Source: Nonlabens marinus S1-08 (lineage in GTDB: Bacteria > Bacteroidota > Bacteroidia > Flavobacteriales > Flavobacteriaceae). From it: DNA of 64,000 bases. The translations under genes and the position numbers were made by a program. This document shows, in pieces, positions 1-63,389 of the stretch (position 1 is the first letter of the stretch; the number at the start of each line of letters is the position of its first letter). The notes under the pieces were generated by a model, which did no database searches, had not been told where the DNA came from, and saw only the letters and a list, made by a program, of their open reading frames with translations. The stretch covers positions 124,001 through 188,000 of the forward strand of contig NZ_AP014548.1 in assembly GCF_000831385.1 (NCBI RefSeq). Direction: 5' to 3'.

Positions 1-891
1 TACAACGGTTCATCACCTTATTCGACTCCGGGAATTATGAGTATGATTCCGCATTTGGAGATTGGGCTAGGAACTTATTACCCTGAAGGTGGTATGCATC
101 GCATCTCGCAGTCGCTCTACGAACTTGCAGAAAAAGTTGGAGTGAAATTCCGCTTTCGCGAAAGCGTCACCTCCATCAACCACAACCAGAATCAGGCTAC
201 GGGAGTCACCACTGCTCAAGGCTTTTATGCACAAGATCTCGTGGTGTCTAACATGGATATTTATCCCACTTACCACCGGTTGATTACTGATATTGAGAAA
301 CCAGAAAAAACATTAGAACAAGAACGATCCAGCAGTGCCTTGATTTTTTATTGGGGAATTTCAAAAAAGTTCCCGCAACTGGATCTACACAATATTTTAT
401 TTAGCGAGGATTACCCTACTGAATTTGAATACATTTTTAAGAAAAAAGAGTTGTACAATGACCCGACAGTTTACATCAACATCACTAGTAAGATGACTCC
501 TAGCGATGCTCCTCAAGGGTGTGAAAATTGGTTTGTGATGATCAATGCTCCTGGGGATTATGGTCAAGACTGGAAACAATTAGTAGCTGAGGCAAAAGCT
601 GATATCATCGCAAAGATTCATCGCACGCTACATATTGACGTGACGCCACTTATCGAGACAGAATATATTTTAACGCCTCAAGGGATCGAAGAAAATACCA
701 GTTCTTACCGCGGTGCCTTATACGGTGCAGCAAGTAATAACAAGTTTGCCGCATTCTTAAGACACCCAAACTTCAATGGAAAACTTAAAAACTTGTATCA
801 TGTAGGCGGGTCAGTTCACCCTGGCGGTGGAATCCCACTGTGTTTACTAAGCGCACAAATTGCAACAGACATGATTCCTCCAGCACAATGA
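1..891 (+). CDS. carotenoid desaturase, CrtI/CrtD family (5' truncated)
   Basis: The reading frame is open from the first base, so this is the C-terminal ~296 residues of a FAD-dependent desaturase of about 490 residues. An internal ATG at 37 is not the start. The family signature HPGGGIPL lies near the C-terminus, followed by the usual hydrophobic helix. Such enzymes desaturate phytoene (CrtI) or the 3',4' bond of acyclic carotenoid ends (CrtD). The immediate neighbour cruF makes CrtD at least as likely as CrtI. The 16-bp palindrome at 151-166 is read as RFRES inside the protein. The stop overlaps the cruF start (ATGA), implying translational coupling. Confidence 0.85.
151..166. repeat. palindromic repeat copy 1 (in desaturase gene)
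   Basis: Perfect CGCTTTCGCGAAAGCG, read as RFRES. Flanks TC/TC, so not the full symmetrical 20-mer. Confidence 0.97.
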
Positions 892-1508
892 AAAATGGCC
901 TCCTTATATTTTTGTGGATCGTCCATGTGAGTGCTCTCATTGGTCTAGCCTTGGGTTATGAGGAATTTTTTTTAGGAAAATCACCCTTTACCATGCTCTT
1001 GCTTGCTGGGTTACTCATTTACTATTTCCCCATTACCGTTCCTAAAACAATCCTGTTGTTCCTAAGTTTTACTGCCATAGGTATTGCGGTGGAATGGATA
1101 GGCGTTCATACAGGTTGGTTATTTGGAACCTATTCCTATGGCGATAATTTTGGCCCTAAACTCGACGGTATTCCCTATTTGATAGGTATCAATTGGGCAT
1201 TATTGACATTTAGCACCCATATTATTGCAAGAAGGTTTTTCCACAACCGATGGATCATTGCAGGCGCAGGTGCTGCGTTAATGGTAGTTTTAGATCTATT
1301 CTTAGAACAAATTTGTGATTATGCGGGATTCTGGAGTTTTGAAAATGGCGCTGGATGGTTCAATTACCTCTGCTGGTTTGTCATCGCTTATGTACTACAT
1401 CTCATTGCTAATAGCTTCAATTTAAAAGGAGATTTCAAAGTCTCGGCACATTTATACATCGTTCAACTTATCTTCGCCGCCATTCTATGGATTATCATTA
1501 CGACATAG
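888..1508 (+). CDS. cruF: CruF-type carotenoid 1',2'-hydratase
   Basis: A polytopic membrane protein of 206 residues with about seven hydrophobic segments, matching the carotenoid biosynthesis DUF422/CruF family. CruF adds water across the 1',2' double bond of an acyclic carotenoid end, giving the tertiary hydroxyl of myxol- and saproxanthin-type pigments. I chose the ATG at 888 because it overlaps the upstream stop in an ATGA arrangement. A longer frame from 840 would add a polar, unlikely N-terminus. The 3' end overlaps crtY by 22 nt, so desaturase, cruF and crtY form one tight operon. The family call rests on sequence recognition and context, not on catalytic motifs. Confidence 0.8.
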
Positions 1509-2626
1509 CAATAGTAGGATTAGGCTGCGCTGGTAGTCACGTGCTGATTCAAATGCTGGATCATCCTGAAATGAAAGATAAAAAAATCATCGTCTTTGAT
1601 GATTTTCAGGCAGACAGCCTTGAGAAAACTTGGAGCTTTTGGGAGAAAGGCGCAGGAAAATGGGACTCGCTTTTGCTGGATCGATGGACTCAAGGCAAAT
1701 TTCAAACCAGCCAAGTAGAGATCGATCTGGGATTGAATCCTTATAGCTATAAGACAATAAAGAGTAAAGGTGTGATCGCTTTCGCGAAAGCGAAACTCCA
1801 ACAAAACCCTAACGCAACATTTGTAGATGCTCGAGTAGACCGCATTGAAGAATCAAAAGTTGCCGCTATTCATACAAATAAGGGAGTTTTCAAATCTAAA
1901 CTCGTACTAGACAGCAGAGTGTCTCCAGAATTTTATAAGGATACTGAGGCAATCACATTGCGTCAGCATTTTCTGGGATGGCATTTAAGAACTGAGCAAG
2001 AAGTATTTGATCCCGAGCGATTTGTGATGATGGACTACCGTTTAATGGATCCAGGGACAACAAGCTTTATGTATATTCTTCCTTATTCGGAAACGGAAGC
2101 CCTAGTAGAGTTCACCTATTTCTCACCAGATTTAGTGGCAGACCAGGTGTATGAAAACTACCTAAACCAATACATTGACACCTATTTAAATGCCACAGAC
2201 TATAGCATAGTTCAAACCGAGCAAGGCGTCATTCCCATGACTACATATAGATTTGAAAAGCATCACACATCATTTGTGCATAAAATAGGTACCGCTGGTG
2301 GCTGGGTGAAGAGCAGTACGGGTTACAGTTTCAAGCTGAGTGAAAAACGAGCTACTCAATTGATTTCTAATTATATTAAAGGTAGGGATTTAGACCATGG
2401 AATGCAGAAGAAACGTTTCCGGTTCTATGATGACATCATGCTAGATGTATTGCACCAGCACAACAATCGCGGACATTTACTCTTTGAGAATTTATATTCA
2501 AATAATCCGATTGCTAGAATATTTTCCTTTCTAGATGAAGAAAGTAACTTCTTGCAGGAATTGAAAATCATGCTTCCGCTCACATCACTTCCTTTTATTA
2601 AAAGCTTCTTTAAAAAGCTATTTTAA
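1487..2626 (+). CDS. crtY: lycopene beta-cyclase CrtY
   Basis: A flavoprotein of 379 residues that starts with a dinucleotide-binding motif ([12 protein letters not shown]) typical of CrtY-family lycopene cyclases. It converts lycopene-type ends to beta-ionone rings, giving beta-carotene or the ring half of monocyclic myxol-type carotenoids. It is therefore the likely source of the substrate for Blh at 49-50 kb. It overlaps cruF by 22 nt and converges with the crtA-like gene, their last 9 bp overlapping. The palindrome at 1777-1792 is read as AFAKA near residue 100. Confidence 0.88.
   Translation: MDYHYDIAIVGLGCAGSHVLIQMLDHPEMKDKKIIVFDDFQADSLEKTWSFWEKGAGKWDSLLLDRWTQGKFQTSQVEIDLGLNPYSYKTIKSKGVIAFAKAKLQQNPNATFVDARVDRIEESKVAAIHTNKGVFKSKLVLDSRVSPEFYKDTEAITLRQHFLGWHLRTEQEVFDPERFVMMDYRLMDPGTTSFMYILPYSETEALVEFTYFSPDLVADQVYENYLNQYIDTYLNATDYSIVQTEQGVIPMTTYRFEKHHTSFVHKIGTAGGWVKSSTGYSFKLSEKRATQLISNYIKGRDLDHGMQKKRFRFYDDIMLDVLHQHNNRGHLLFENLYSNNPIARIFSFLDEESNFLQELKIMLPLTSLPFIKSFFKKLF
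1777..1792. repeat. palindromic repeat copy 2 (in crtY)
   Basis: Perfect core read as AFAKA in CrtY. Flanks AT/AA. Confidence 0.97.
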
Positions 2627-62107: not shown

Positions 62108-62137
62108 TCAATGTTCCATAAAGAACATTAACAAGCT
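62101..62137. terminator. imperfect hairpin between convergent genes
   Basis: Two stacked stems (62101-62106 with 62132-62137, and 62110-62116 with 62123-62129) separated by a small internal loop. No strong T-tract follows. Confidence 0.4.
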
Positions 62138-62156
62138 TCATTGAAAAATGTAGAAC

Positions 62157-63389
62157 TTAGAATCGCGTTTTGGGCTCGTTGACATAATCCTCGAGATAAG
62201 AAAAACGTTCAGTTAGTGTACCATCCTTAGTCGTCATCTTGGCTCGTTCCAGTATCCCATCAGCGTCATCGTTAAAAAAGGCAGGAAATACATGCTCTAA
62301 AAACATCTCGCCAAAACCCTCACTAGCATCTTTAGGCAATTCGCAAGGTAAATTATCTACTGCCATGACCGCTATAGATCCAGGTGTATTGAAAGCTACT
62401 TCCTTCTCGCTGGATGGATCATAACCATACAAGGGGTCAGCGATAGTAGATGCCCGTAAGGTACATGCAATAGGACCATTAATATCACAGCTTACATCTG
62501 CTACTAGCGAGATGTTGAAATTTTCTGATTTCATATCCTCTCTTGTGAAGAAATACGGTGCGCCATCGCCATAAAAGTGACCCGTAATCAAAATATCAGC
62601 CACAGCGGCAAATTTCATAAAATCAGACTCAAGAAGTTCTGGATTGTTGTAGCATTCTGTTTTAGTAGGTGTTAAACCATCCTTTCTCGTATAGTAGTCG
62701 TCAACGTCCAGCTGCGTAAACACCGTCTGATTGTTCTGAAATTGACCTAATTGCAAAAACTCTTTAGGCGTTAATTCATGTATGTGTAATAGTTCTAGAA
62801 TCTCTTTAATACCACCACTTACCTTACCACTACCAGTAATCACAATATTTACAGGCGGTAACTCCGTTCGTATAAGTTCCAATTGGGTTTTTACCGCGTC
62901 GAAATCGGCAAGATCATCTACTTTAGGCAACTTAAACAAATTGTCCTTCAGTCCCAGCGCCCTGAATGCATTGTAGGCTCCTACCAATCCAGCATACCTT
63001 CCAAAACCTATTAAACGCATATTGCTTTCATTCACAATGGTTTCGTGATCGTACAACTCAATTTTCTTATCGAGTATGGCACATAACAAATCTCTATTGT
63101 AAGGTTGCTTTTTAATGGTGTGTGAAAAGAAAAAGTATTTTTTACCTGGAATCAAAGCATCAACGGGAACTTCCTTCACTCCTATCATGACGTCTGCTTC
63201 CGTGATATCTTCCGCTACCTGGAGACCTGCTTGAGTATAGCTAGAATCTGGAAATATTCTTACTTGTGATGGTTCTATGAGGAGTTCCGCTTTCGCGAAA
63301 GCGTGCTCTAATTGAGCTGCTTGAACAGGCGAGAGCACCACACGTCTATCTGGCGGGTTTTTGCGTTCTCGAATTAAGGCAAACTTCAT
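62157..63389 (-). CDS. LOR/SDH-type NAD(P)-dependent oxidoreductase
   Basis: A 410-residue protein with an AlaDH/PNT-like N-terminus (IRERKNPPDRRVVLSP) and a central Rossmann region (NIVITGSGKVSGGI). It resembles the lysine-oxoglutarate reductase/saccharopine dehydrogenase-like family of Bacteroidota; the substrate is unproven. The palindrome at 63288-63303 gives AFAKA near residue 30, in a helix facing the N-terminal domain. Confidence 0.8.
   Translation of the reverse strand: MKFALIRERKNPPDRRVVLSPVQAAQLEHAFAKAELLIEPSQVRIFPDSSYTQAGLQVAEDITEADVMIGVKEVPVDALIPGKKYFFFSHTIKKQPYNRDLLCAILDKKIELYDHETIVNESNMRLIGFGRYAGLVGAYNAFRALGLKDNLFKLPKVDDLADFDAVKTQLELIRTELPPVNIVITGSGKVSGGIKEILELLHIHELTPKEFLQLGQFQNNQTVFTQLDVDDYYTRKDGLTPTKTECYNNPELLESDFMKFAAVADILITGHFYGDGAPYFFTREDMKSENFNISLVADVSCDINGPIACTLRASTIADPLYGYDPSSEKEVAFNTPGSIAVMAVDNLPCELPKDASEGFGEMFLEHVFPAFFNDDADGILERAKMTTKDGTLTERFSYLEDYVNEPKTRF
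63288..63303. repeat. palindromic repeat copy 18 (in LOR/SDH-type gene)
   Basis: Perfect core read as AFAKA near the N-terminus. Flanks TC/TG. Confidence 0.97.

Follow-up and report, generated by a model that had tools for sequence, protein, structure and literature searches.

Few repeated addresses that run through whole bacterial genomes are known, among them uptake sequences, Chi, KOPS and HIP1, and most of these have led to a molecular machine. Uptake sequences, USS in the Pasteurellaceae and DUS in the Neisseriaceae, lie in hundreds of copies along the chromosome, at about one per kb. Known Chi sites are 5–8 nt long, polar and read as a single strand. Another group, that of parS, the Noc sites and matS, consists of palindromic 13–16 bp sites for dimeric chromosome proteins, present in few to some tens of copies. 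HIP1 (GCGATCGC) of cyanobacteria has 8 bp and is described in PMC4390886 as palindromic, highly iterated and present in coding and non-coding DNA. PMC1626085 gives USS and DUS cores of 9–10 bp that are not palindromic, treats the excess of exact over one-mismatch copies as a puzzle common to both, and notes that the sites of ordinary regulatory proteins have relaxed consensuses.

The 16-bp perfect palindrome CGCTTTCGCGAAAGCG of Nonlabens shares with USS and DUS its hundreds of dispersed copies, the predominance of exact ones, an origin by substitution, a preference for non-coding DNA and looser cores in relatives, and with USS also structured flanks, but it has symmetric flanks, occurs in a different phylum and is found once per 4.5 kb. 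Its density is similar to that of Chi, whereas it is about twice as long and, being palindromic, is not polar as Chi and KOPS are. Like HIP1 it is in great excess in coding and non-coding DNA alike, but it has 16 bp and constrained flanks and, among the genera sampled, is abundant only in Nonlabens and two others. The sites of parS, Noc and matS are fewer (here there are about 650) and more degenerate. No description of the motif was found in the titles and opening lines of abstracts searched.

Copy number, exactness and placement

The initial annotation had reported 18 exact copies, above chance, in the window, by which we mean the whole 64-kb stretch analysed here; the coordinates hold (Table 1), and 100 dinucleotide shuffles of the window gave no copy. 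Its claim that the core never varies stands inside the window, where a search for further copies with 1–3 mismatches found none, and fails genome-wide, where 857 places lie within three mismatches of CGCTTTCGCGAAAGCG (44 for the reversed control) and 653 are exact (0 for the reversed control). These 653 copies in the 2.9 Mb chromosome correspond to one per ~4.5 kb. In 464 kb of chromosome, made up of the window and 20 stretches of 20 kb, we counted 120 exact sites and 20, 3 and 7 with one, two and three mismatches, respectively. Confinement to the window, or one-mismatch variants as common as the exact core, had been named as grounds for giving the motif up; the copies are genome-wide, and exact ones far outnumber one-mismatch ones, so both grounds fall away. 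Half-sites follow the full sites closely: CGCTTTCG occurs 18 times and CGAAAGCG 19 times in the window, against 18 full sites, leaving almost no free half-sites.

Table 1. Copies of the palindrome in the window. The strand of every palindrome feature is given as "."; ORF calls are mechanical.
Core	Setting	Orthologous positions
151..166	Within amine-oxidase-like ORF 37-891	Exact in one relative
1777..1792	Within lycopene cyclase ORF 1487-2626	Exact in one relative
5141..5156	Start of ORF 5113-5799 (PagL-like); real start possibly downstream	
9184..9199	Outside genes, beyond start of aconitase ORF 6714-8981 (-)	
11773..11788	Near 5' end of PPIC peptidyl-prolyl isomerase ORF 10378-11853 (-)	Exact in three Nonlabens relatives
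15031..15046	In ORF 14713-15231 (without Pfam family)	Exact in two relatives
18029..18044	Directly past ORF 16632-18014 (FAD oxidase)	
23542..23557	Near 3' end of ORF 23480-24988 (-) (GH30)	Exact in one relative
26295..26310	Outside genes (26264 to 26335)	Exact in one relative
29873..29888	Outside genes (29820 to 29927)	
39852..39867 (full symmetric site 39825..39894)	Past ORF 39040-39807 (-), within overlapping ORF 39571-40347 (+); gene call ambiguous	
42665..42680	In ORF 42017-43096 (-)	Two relatives without motif, by substitution, ungapped
46447..46462	Outside genes (46351 to 46515, divergent)	
50328..50343	Upstream of SRP54 (ffh) ORF at 50442	
52698..52713	Outside genes (52685 to 52748)	
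56010..56025	In ORF 55759-57171	Three relatives with exact motif, arm identity 67-72%
58359..58374	Outside genes (58344 to 58428)	
63288..63303	Near 5' end of ORF 62157-63389 (-)	Exact in one relative

Non-coding DNA is strongly preferred, 41 of 94 sites lying outside ORFs against 8.7% expected (ORFs cover 91.3%; P = 2e-19), and the other 53 are inside ORFs; as the initial annotation had it, the motif is not tied to one gene type. The 41 non-ORF sites fall between tandem genes in 27 cases and between convergent and divergent genes in 7 each (background 0.55, 0.19 and 0.26). A transcription terminator is not favoured by this gene context, nor by the A, not T, that follows the stem. The motif is scarce in an element-like chromosome region at 1.25–1.31 Mb, so resident DNA can manage without it.

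Flanks and spacing

The letters around the core differ from copy to copy, and only their composition is common to the copies. On both strands, G is avoided over ~18–27 nt 3' of the core (188 sites), so that 5' of the core each strand is rich in G+T. Between +3 and +18, G makes up 27 of 576 flank letters at the 18 window sites and 278 of 3840 at 120 sites, where C makes up 1090 of 3840; beside 702 control palindromes the rule is absent (G 0.204, C 0.199). In the example at 39825..39894, the core with ~27 nt per side is C-poor 5' and G-poor 3' on either strand. Flank letters change freely between conserved ortholog pairs (identity 0.68–0.76), and the mismatches there involve G in 39 of 215 cases at +3 to +18 versus 238 of 616 at +41 to +80. 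The palindrome is best explained as the centre of a larger DNA site, two-fold symmetric and roughly 50–70 bp long. A flank period of 9–10 nt (permutation P = 0.0018) is exploratory, since the tested range was picked after the peak had appeared, and periods 6 and 8 are also sizeable.

The sites are also spaced more evenly than random placement would have them. Density was 3–7 copies per 20 kb in 19 of the 20 sampled stretches, and gaps are typically 3–5 kb and seldom below 2 kb. For the first 100 sites, the whole-genome positions used for this purpose, 9% of gaps were below 2 kb versus 38% expected, and the spacing CV was 0.61 versus 0.98 expected, with none of 10,000 random sets as even. The sampled stretches agree: 20 of 99 gaps were below 2 kb versus 43.9 in random sets matched for the ORF or non-ORF placement of the sites, and none of 2000 such sets was as low. 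Neither the symmetric flanks nor the over-regular spacing figured in the initial annotation.

Orthologous sites and distribution among genomes

Copies arise in place by substitution and are maintained at orthologous positions. The aligned stretches of four genomes hold 54 sites, 53 of them with usable arms, and for 29 of these a counterpart position was located in one or more of the other genomes; the other 24, outside the ortholog comparison, are assumed to lie mostly in fast-changing or unfetched DNA. The motif was exact in 50 of 55 comparisons (which include reciprocals and contain 26 unique conserved pairs) at ~76% flank identity, bearing out the initial annotation's view that it is under selection or drive. 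In the remaining 5 it was absent, with at least 4 substitutions and no gap, and indeed none of the 55 comparisons was gapped.

All 23 Nonlabens genomes searched carry the motif, in 180–737 copies each, the lowest count (180) coming from a 78%-complete genome. The initial annotation was right to look to the Flavobacteriaceae. Beyond Nonlabens, two others among 397 family genomes sampled are motif-rich, belong to two further genera and have a looser core; the remainder have 0–13 exact copies. Nearly the whole sampled family has few copies or none, so the function is dispensable there or performed in another way. With up to three mismatches allowed, some other genera show a mild excess over the control. 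Other palindrome dialects were sought in 13 motif-poor genomes of 9 genera, whose 14 sampled stretches of 20 kb gave one repeated palindrome of at least 12 bp, A+T-only and in two copies, and 79 named loci without the motif gave just five two-copy 12-mers, N runs aside. A reader gene was sought beside the stray copies in other genera, and the genes tested were ordinary, 7 of 8 matching ordinary larger gene families. Such stray copies may fingerprint DNA of motif-rich donors that has moved elsewhere.

The motif also occurs in tailed phages, in one case within the portal and terminase genes, and one motif-bearing phage contig has an integrase. Several phage copies stand at homologous positions in contigs ~65–75% alike; these contigs were found through their motif copies and are thus an unfair sample. 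Phage contigs below 50% GC obey a weaker form of the flank rule (G 135/1312). The 7 of 41 viral stretches above 50% GC do not follow it (G 71/224), and the motif in them is taken for chance or unrelated.

Possible readers of the site

Near letter-perfect upkeep amid changed surroundings suggests that a so far undescribed protein recognises the motif along the chromosome. Our best reading, tentative and somewhat short of probable, is that the site serves inside the cell to organise the chromosome; DNA uptake ranks second. A nucleoid-protein site and an uptake signal had both been among the roles listed in the initial annotation. We infer a hypothetical dimeric protein as the reader and an organising role. 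In Nonlabens and the two other flavobacterial genera, a putative dimeric, sequence-specific DNA-binding protein would read the site inside the cell, holding the 16-bp core and contacting the G-poor flanks for about two helical turns in either direction. The ~650 sites could then serve to anchor or bridge the nucleoid at regular intervals, and would mark resident DNA as part of it. In favour of this reading we count the two-fold symmetry with almost no free half-sites, the flank rule and its retention in ortholog pairs, the even density and spacing, the exact orthologous copies, the presence in every Nonlabens genome searched, and the copies in phages. It is conceivable, though we lean slightly against it, that this is an address system unlike any described, in which ~650 symmetric sites with perhaps helically phased flanks, phage-borne too, allow a putative dimeric reader to organise or identify resident DNA. 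Speaking against an organising role, copy numbers within the genus differ by a factor of about four, known organising sites are fewer and more degenerate, ordinary regulatory sites have relaxed consensuses, and most of the sampled family as well as the region at 1.25–1.31 Mb do without the motif. If the site does organise the chromosome, it offers an opening into nucleoid structure in Bacteroidota, and since the motif is long, symmetric and almost error-free, its reader might be caught with one labelled oligonucleotide.

Alternatively, the motif may be a putative palindromic DNA uptake signal, whose perfect copies are enriched by the bias of a surface receptor and by recombination (molecular drive). 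The predominance of exact over one-mismatch copies, the lack of insertions among ortholog comparisons, the bias towards non-coding DNA alongside many copies in coding DNA, the structured flanks, the presence throughout one genus with a looser core in others, and the scarcity in the element-like region are all consistent with this. PMC7965970 further describes Riemerella columbina, put in the Flavobacteriaceae by its authors, as competent and preferring its own DNA; the k-mers tested there were of at most 10 bp. We nevertheless regard uptake as a doubtful reading. The usual pilus motor is missing from most motif-rich genomes tested: in a search with one pilus family, the PilB/PilT-type ATPase (PF00437), covering 12 of the 23 Nonlabens genomes plus G206 and G190, only 3 of these 14 (G242, G397 and G415) gave a match above the cut-off, while the window's genome, 8 other Nonlabens, G206 and G190 gave none. 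Also against uptake are the phage copies, some of which stand at homologous positions, and a core unlike the short non-palindromic ones of USS and DUS. If the motif is an uptake signal, it would apparently have no palindromic precedent, and its hosts would have to take up DNA without the usual pilus motor.

A two-way Chi-like signal for recombination or repair, at which a helicase-nuclease would switch mode from either side and the GT-rich strand beyond would favour RecA loading, seems unlikely. The density resembles that of Chi in E. coli, the G+T-rich 5' side of each strand is what RecA is said to prefer, and phages, which can profit from Chi sites, carry the motif. Half-sites are not enriched in the window, however, the repulsion between sites is not specifically predicted, and known Chi sites differ in length, polarity and strandedness. 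Less likely still is that the palindrome is kept, in the manner of HIP1, through a putative DNA methyltransferase or modification system with its target inside the motif. The likeness to HIP1 in iteration and placement would fit, and the motif contains the palindromes CGCG and TCGCGA, with 18 of the 21 TCGCGA in the window inside it; but just 18 of the window's 72 CGCG are in the motif, all core positions are largely kept, and the flanks outside any short target are also constrained.

A repeat that moves or copies itself, such as REP/RAYT or MITE, suggested initially as a self-spreading repeat, would account for the many identical copies and the stray ones in other genera, but it is rejected as highly improbable: the absence of gaps together with orthologous retention argues that the motif is not mobile, the absent sites are ungapped diverged sequence, the flanks share composition and not element sequence, over half of the copies are in ORFs, and 7 of the 8 genes tested around stray copies are ordinary. 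Least probable of all, despite the 16-bp palindrome and one copy inside parB of the window's genome, is that ParB reads the motif as the chromosomal parS of Nonlabens: no canonical parS was seen near parB at first, and whole-genome searches then located it elsewhere, as a separate perfect TGTTTCACGTGAAACA, one each, in 12 of 12 Nonlabens genomes searched, with near-parS pairs 1.9 kb apart and 1–2 mismatches from the query kept in G206 and G190. The earlier suggestion of a segregation protein is thereby excluded as far as it runs via ParB. Each of the 14 motif-rich genomes tested encodes a single ParB of ~300 aa, as most others do, and in G000 an additional element-type ParB copy accompanies this ordinary protein.

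Exactness and anatomy of the site

The 16-bp perfect palindrome CGCTTTCGCGAAAGCG is a real, strong and genome-wide site. The 18 copies located by the initial annotation are present in the 64-kb window exactly where it placed them, and none occurred in 100 shuffles; the whole 2,915,920-base contig, of which the window forms bases 124001-188000, has 653 exact copies, compared with none of the control, the same 16-mer reversed. With up to three mismatches allowed, the chromosome has 857 places for the motif versus 44 for the control. The annotation had also described the core as never varying, which holds in the window, where no copies with one to three mismatches were found, but not across the genome, as a 464-kb sample of the chromosome, made up of the window and 20 further 20-kb stretches, contained 120 exact, 20 one-mismatch, 3 two-mismatch and 7 three-mismatch copies. 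Each exact word has 48 possible one-mismatch words, and yet perfect copies predominate. The shift of the exact-to-one-mismatch ratio from neutral is 5.7 natural-log units in Nonlabens marinus (G000), 5.1 in G206 and 3.0 in G190, the last two being genomes from other flavobacterial genera, and suggests that each site is under selection that is weak yet effective, or under a drive of equal strength.

Outside the core, in 188 sites drawn from five Nonlabens genomes with both strands pooled, the 3′ flank begins AA(A/C)(T/A), after which G is scarce up to about position 18 and less markedly depleted as far as about 27. At +3 to +18 in G000, 278 of 3840 letters are G and 1090 are C, as compared with frequencies of 0.204 and 0.199, respectively, in the flanks of 702 other GC-rich palindromes in the same sequence. 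Coding and non-coding copies follow this rule alike, and it holds in G206 and, more weakly, in G190. Because the rule is identical on both strands, the whole site is two-fold symmetric, spanning roughly 50–70 bp. Over their first eight positions, the two flanks had no clear excess of base-to-base complementarity over composition, save at the first position. Flank G frequency may have a 9–10 nt period (permutation P 0.0018, exploratory, with the range picked after the peak was seen). The outermost core letters are looser in G206 and G190 than in G000, the first C being retained in 0.83, 0.65 and 0.95 of half-sites, respectively (copies with at most two mismatches).

Placement and conservation

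In a trimmed sample of the chromosome of which 91.3% is ORF (at least 90 aa), 41 of 94 sites lie outside ORFs and 53 inside (binomial P 2e-19). By our codon reading, 35 of the 53 coding copies are in the Ala-Phe-Ala-Lys-Ala frame, and the other two frames account for 12 and 6. The first 100 chromosomal sites have a spacing CV of 0.61 versus 0.98 for random placement, with none of 10,000 random sets as even, and 9% of their gaps are shorter than 2 kb versus 38% expected. Likewise, the 464-kb sample has 20 of 99 gaps below 2 kb, whereas redrawing the sites with the counts inside and outside ORFs held constant gave 43.9 on average and never as few in 2000 sets, and in the listed part of another genome, G397, the proportion is 12% versus 28% expected from the median. 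Nineteen of the 20 sampled 20-kb stretches carry 3–7 sites; the remaining one, at 1.25 Mb, has 1, with 4 in the preceding stretch and 1 and 0 in the next two. This motif-poor region looks like an integrated element, of which a second ParB-domain protein would be part. The PilB/GspE-type ATPase of G397's species sits in the second of two gaps that have no exact copy, as if recently acquired.

Between Nonlabens species, the core is exact in 50 of 55 ortholog comparisons (reciprocal ones included; 26 unique conserved pairs from 28 sites), with flanking arms averaging 76% identity. The other five have at least four core substitutions; none of the 55 has one to three, and none is gapped. Of 53 usable sites, 29 could be placed in another genome, and an earlier mapping gave 13 of 15 exact. 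In conserved pairs, flank identity drops from 0.76 to 0.68–0.73, change being about as free as farther out, and of the mismatches, 39 of 215 within +3 to +18 involve G, versus 238 of 616 within +41 to +80. These core and flank results indicate that motif sites arise by substitution, that comparable sites mostly stay in place, and that the flank composition itself is maintained.

Distribution among bacteria and phages

All 23 Nonlabens genomes searched carry the motif, in 180 to 737 copies. At least one exact copy occurs in 48 of 397 genomes of the family, where the highest counts outside Nonlabens (four genomes of the set) are 630 in G206 and 153 in G190, followed by 13, 12 and 11; with up to three mismatches, G206 has 1290 places (control 53) and G190 has 683 (control 71). 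Phylum-wide, the motif is in 11 of 395 genomes, at 1–2 copies each except in the window's own genome. Among the matches listed for the window's SRP54 (at least 80 loci), the best named one belongs to a Nonlabens MAG (94% identity), whose 21-kb locus has 3 motif copies; the 79 other named loci among those matches have none. Searches of open-licence papers, judged from titles and abstract openings, found no description of the motif. Four further genomes (G144, G329, G317 and G042) have a mild excess of near-matches with up to three mismatches (65–74 versus 12–19 for the control), with exact copies in G144 only (3), and the near-matches listed for two genomes of other genera, G335 and G265, include CGCTTCCGCGGAAGCG, possibly a weak dialect.

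Stray copies were followed in 20 stretches from 17 other Flavobacteriaceae genomes. Seven of eight genes tested there resemble CusA/CzcA efflux pumps (two), a TolC-type protein, a heavy-metal P-type ATPase, a TonB-dependent receptor, an HlyD-type adaptor and conjugative-transposon TraN, several of these matches falling under curated cut-offs; the eighth matched no family. Stray copies lie inside the genes that resemble metal-efflux pumps, the heavy-metal ATPase and TraN. Spacings of 933, 2446 and 3460 bp are identical across different genera. It is possible that stray copies are footprints of DNA transfer from motif-rich donors, and they may offer a fingerprint for such DNA.

Phages carry the motif, and some keep it in place. 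An IMG/VR scan gave 41 motif-bearing stretches from, by our count, 30 contigs, which were selected by motif presence and do not give its frequency among phages; 40 of their 49 sites are within ORFs. One 37-kb contig has 6 copies, two of them inside portal and terminase ORFs, and 6 of its 10 tested proteins match portal, terminase, head protease, major head, tail sheath and baseplate hub families. A second codes for portal, major head, tape measure and neck proteins, and one motif-bearing viral contig has an integrase. Several copies are at homologous positions in contigs about 65–75% alike. The flank rule is weaker but present in viral stretches below 50% GC (G 135 of 1312) and was not found in GC-rich ones (71 of 224); motif contigs below 50% GC are probably from phages of Nonlabens-like hosts.

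Candidate roles and readers

The reading that we rank first, and hold tentatively, is that of an intracellular, dimeric reader, which would organise the chromosome or mark the cell's own DNA. A DNA uptake signal ranks second and appears rather unlikely. Known sequence-specific uptake requires a type IV pilus motor, but PF00437 was over cut-off in just 3 of 14 motif-rich genomes tested (15 of all 66), with no match over cut-off in G000. Copy number does not track PF00437: the three genomes with it have 676, 579 and 422 copies, and the eleven without it have 153 to 737. The motif nevertheless has the sequence marks of uptake sequences described in passages of Redfield and colleagues (PMC1626085), and Riemerella columbina, a competent species that its authors place in the same family, shows a preference for its own DNA (PMC7965970, in which the k-mer search ended at 10 bp). 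Excerpts of a further paper name only two families with uptake preferences of this kind and give an average spacing of about 1,000 bp for Haemophilus uptake sequences (PMC7811141). A Chi-like role, ranked third, is improbable. ParB is ruled out as the reader, because each of the 14 motif-rich genomes tested has a single ordinary ParB of about 300 aa (G000 adds one element-type copy) and parS is separate, being perfect in 12 of 12 Nonlabens and present as near-parS pairs in G206 and G190. The parS pair of G000 could be a marker for the chromosomal origin region.

Coordinates of features in the window and in the genomes compared
Sequence	Position	Feature	Details
G000:C1	853236 and 855129	parS pair	one perfect, one near; 1.9 kb apart
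G000:C1	1250001-1310000	motif-poor region (L059, L227, L228)	1, 1, 0 copies per 20 kb
G000	1269093	second ParB-domain protein	616 aa; in the motif-poor region
G397:C4	297970-352821	two gaps without exact motif	34 and 20 kb
G190:C1	100001-120000 (L071)	another repeated palindrome, GCCTGCCGGCAGGC	3 copies in 20 kb
Window	19279-19860	direct duplication	144 nt, 85% alike; within ORF 18188-19927
Window	20219-21290	direct duplication	162 nt, 70% alike; common to ORFs 20219-21127 and 21129-23468
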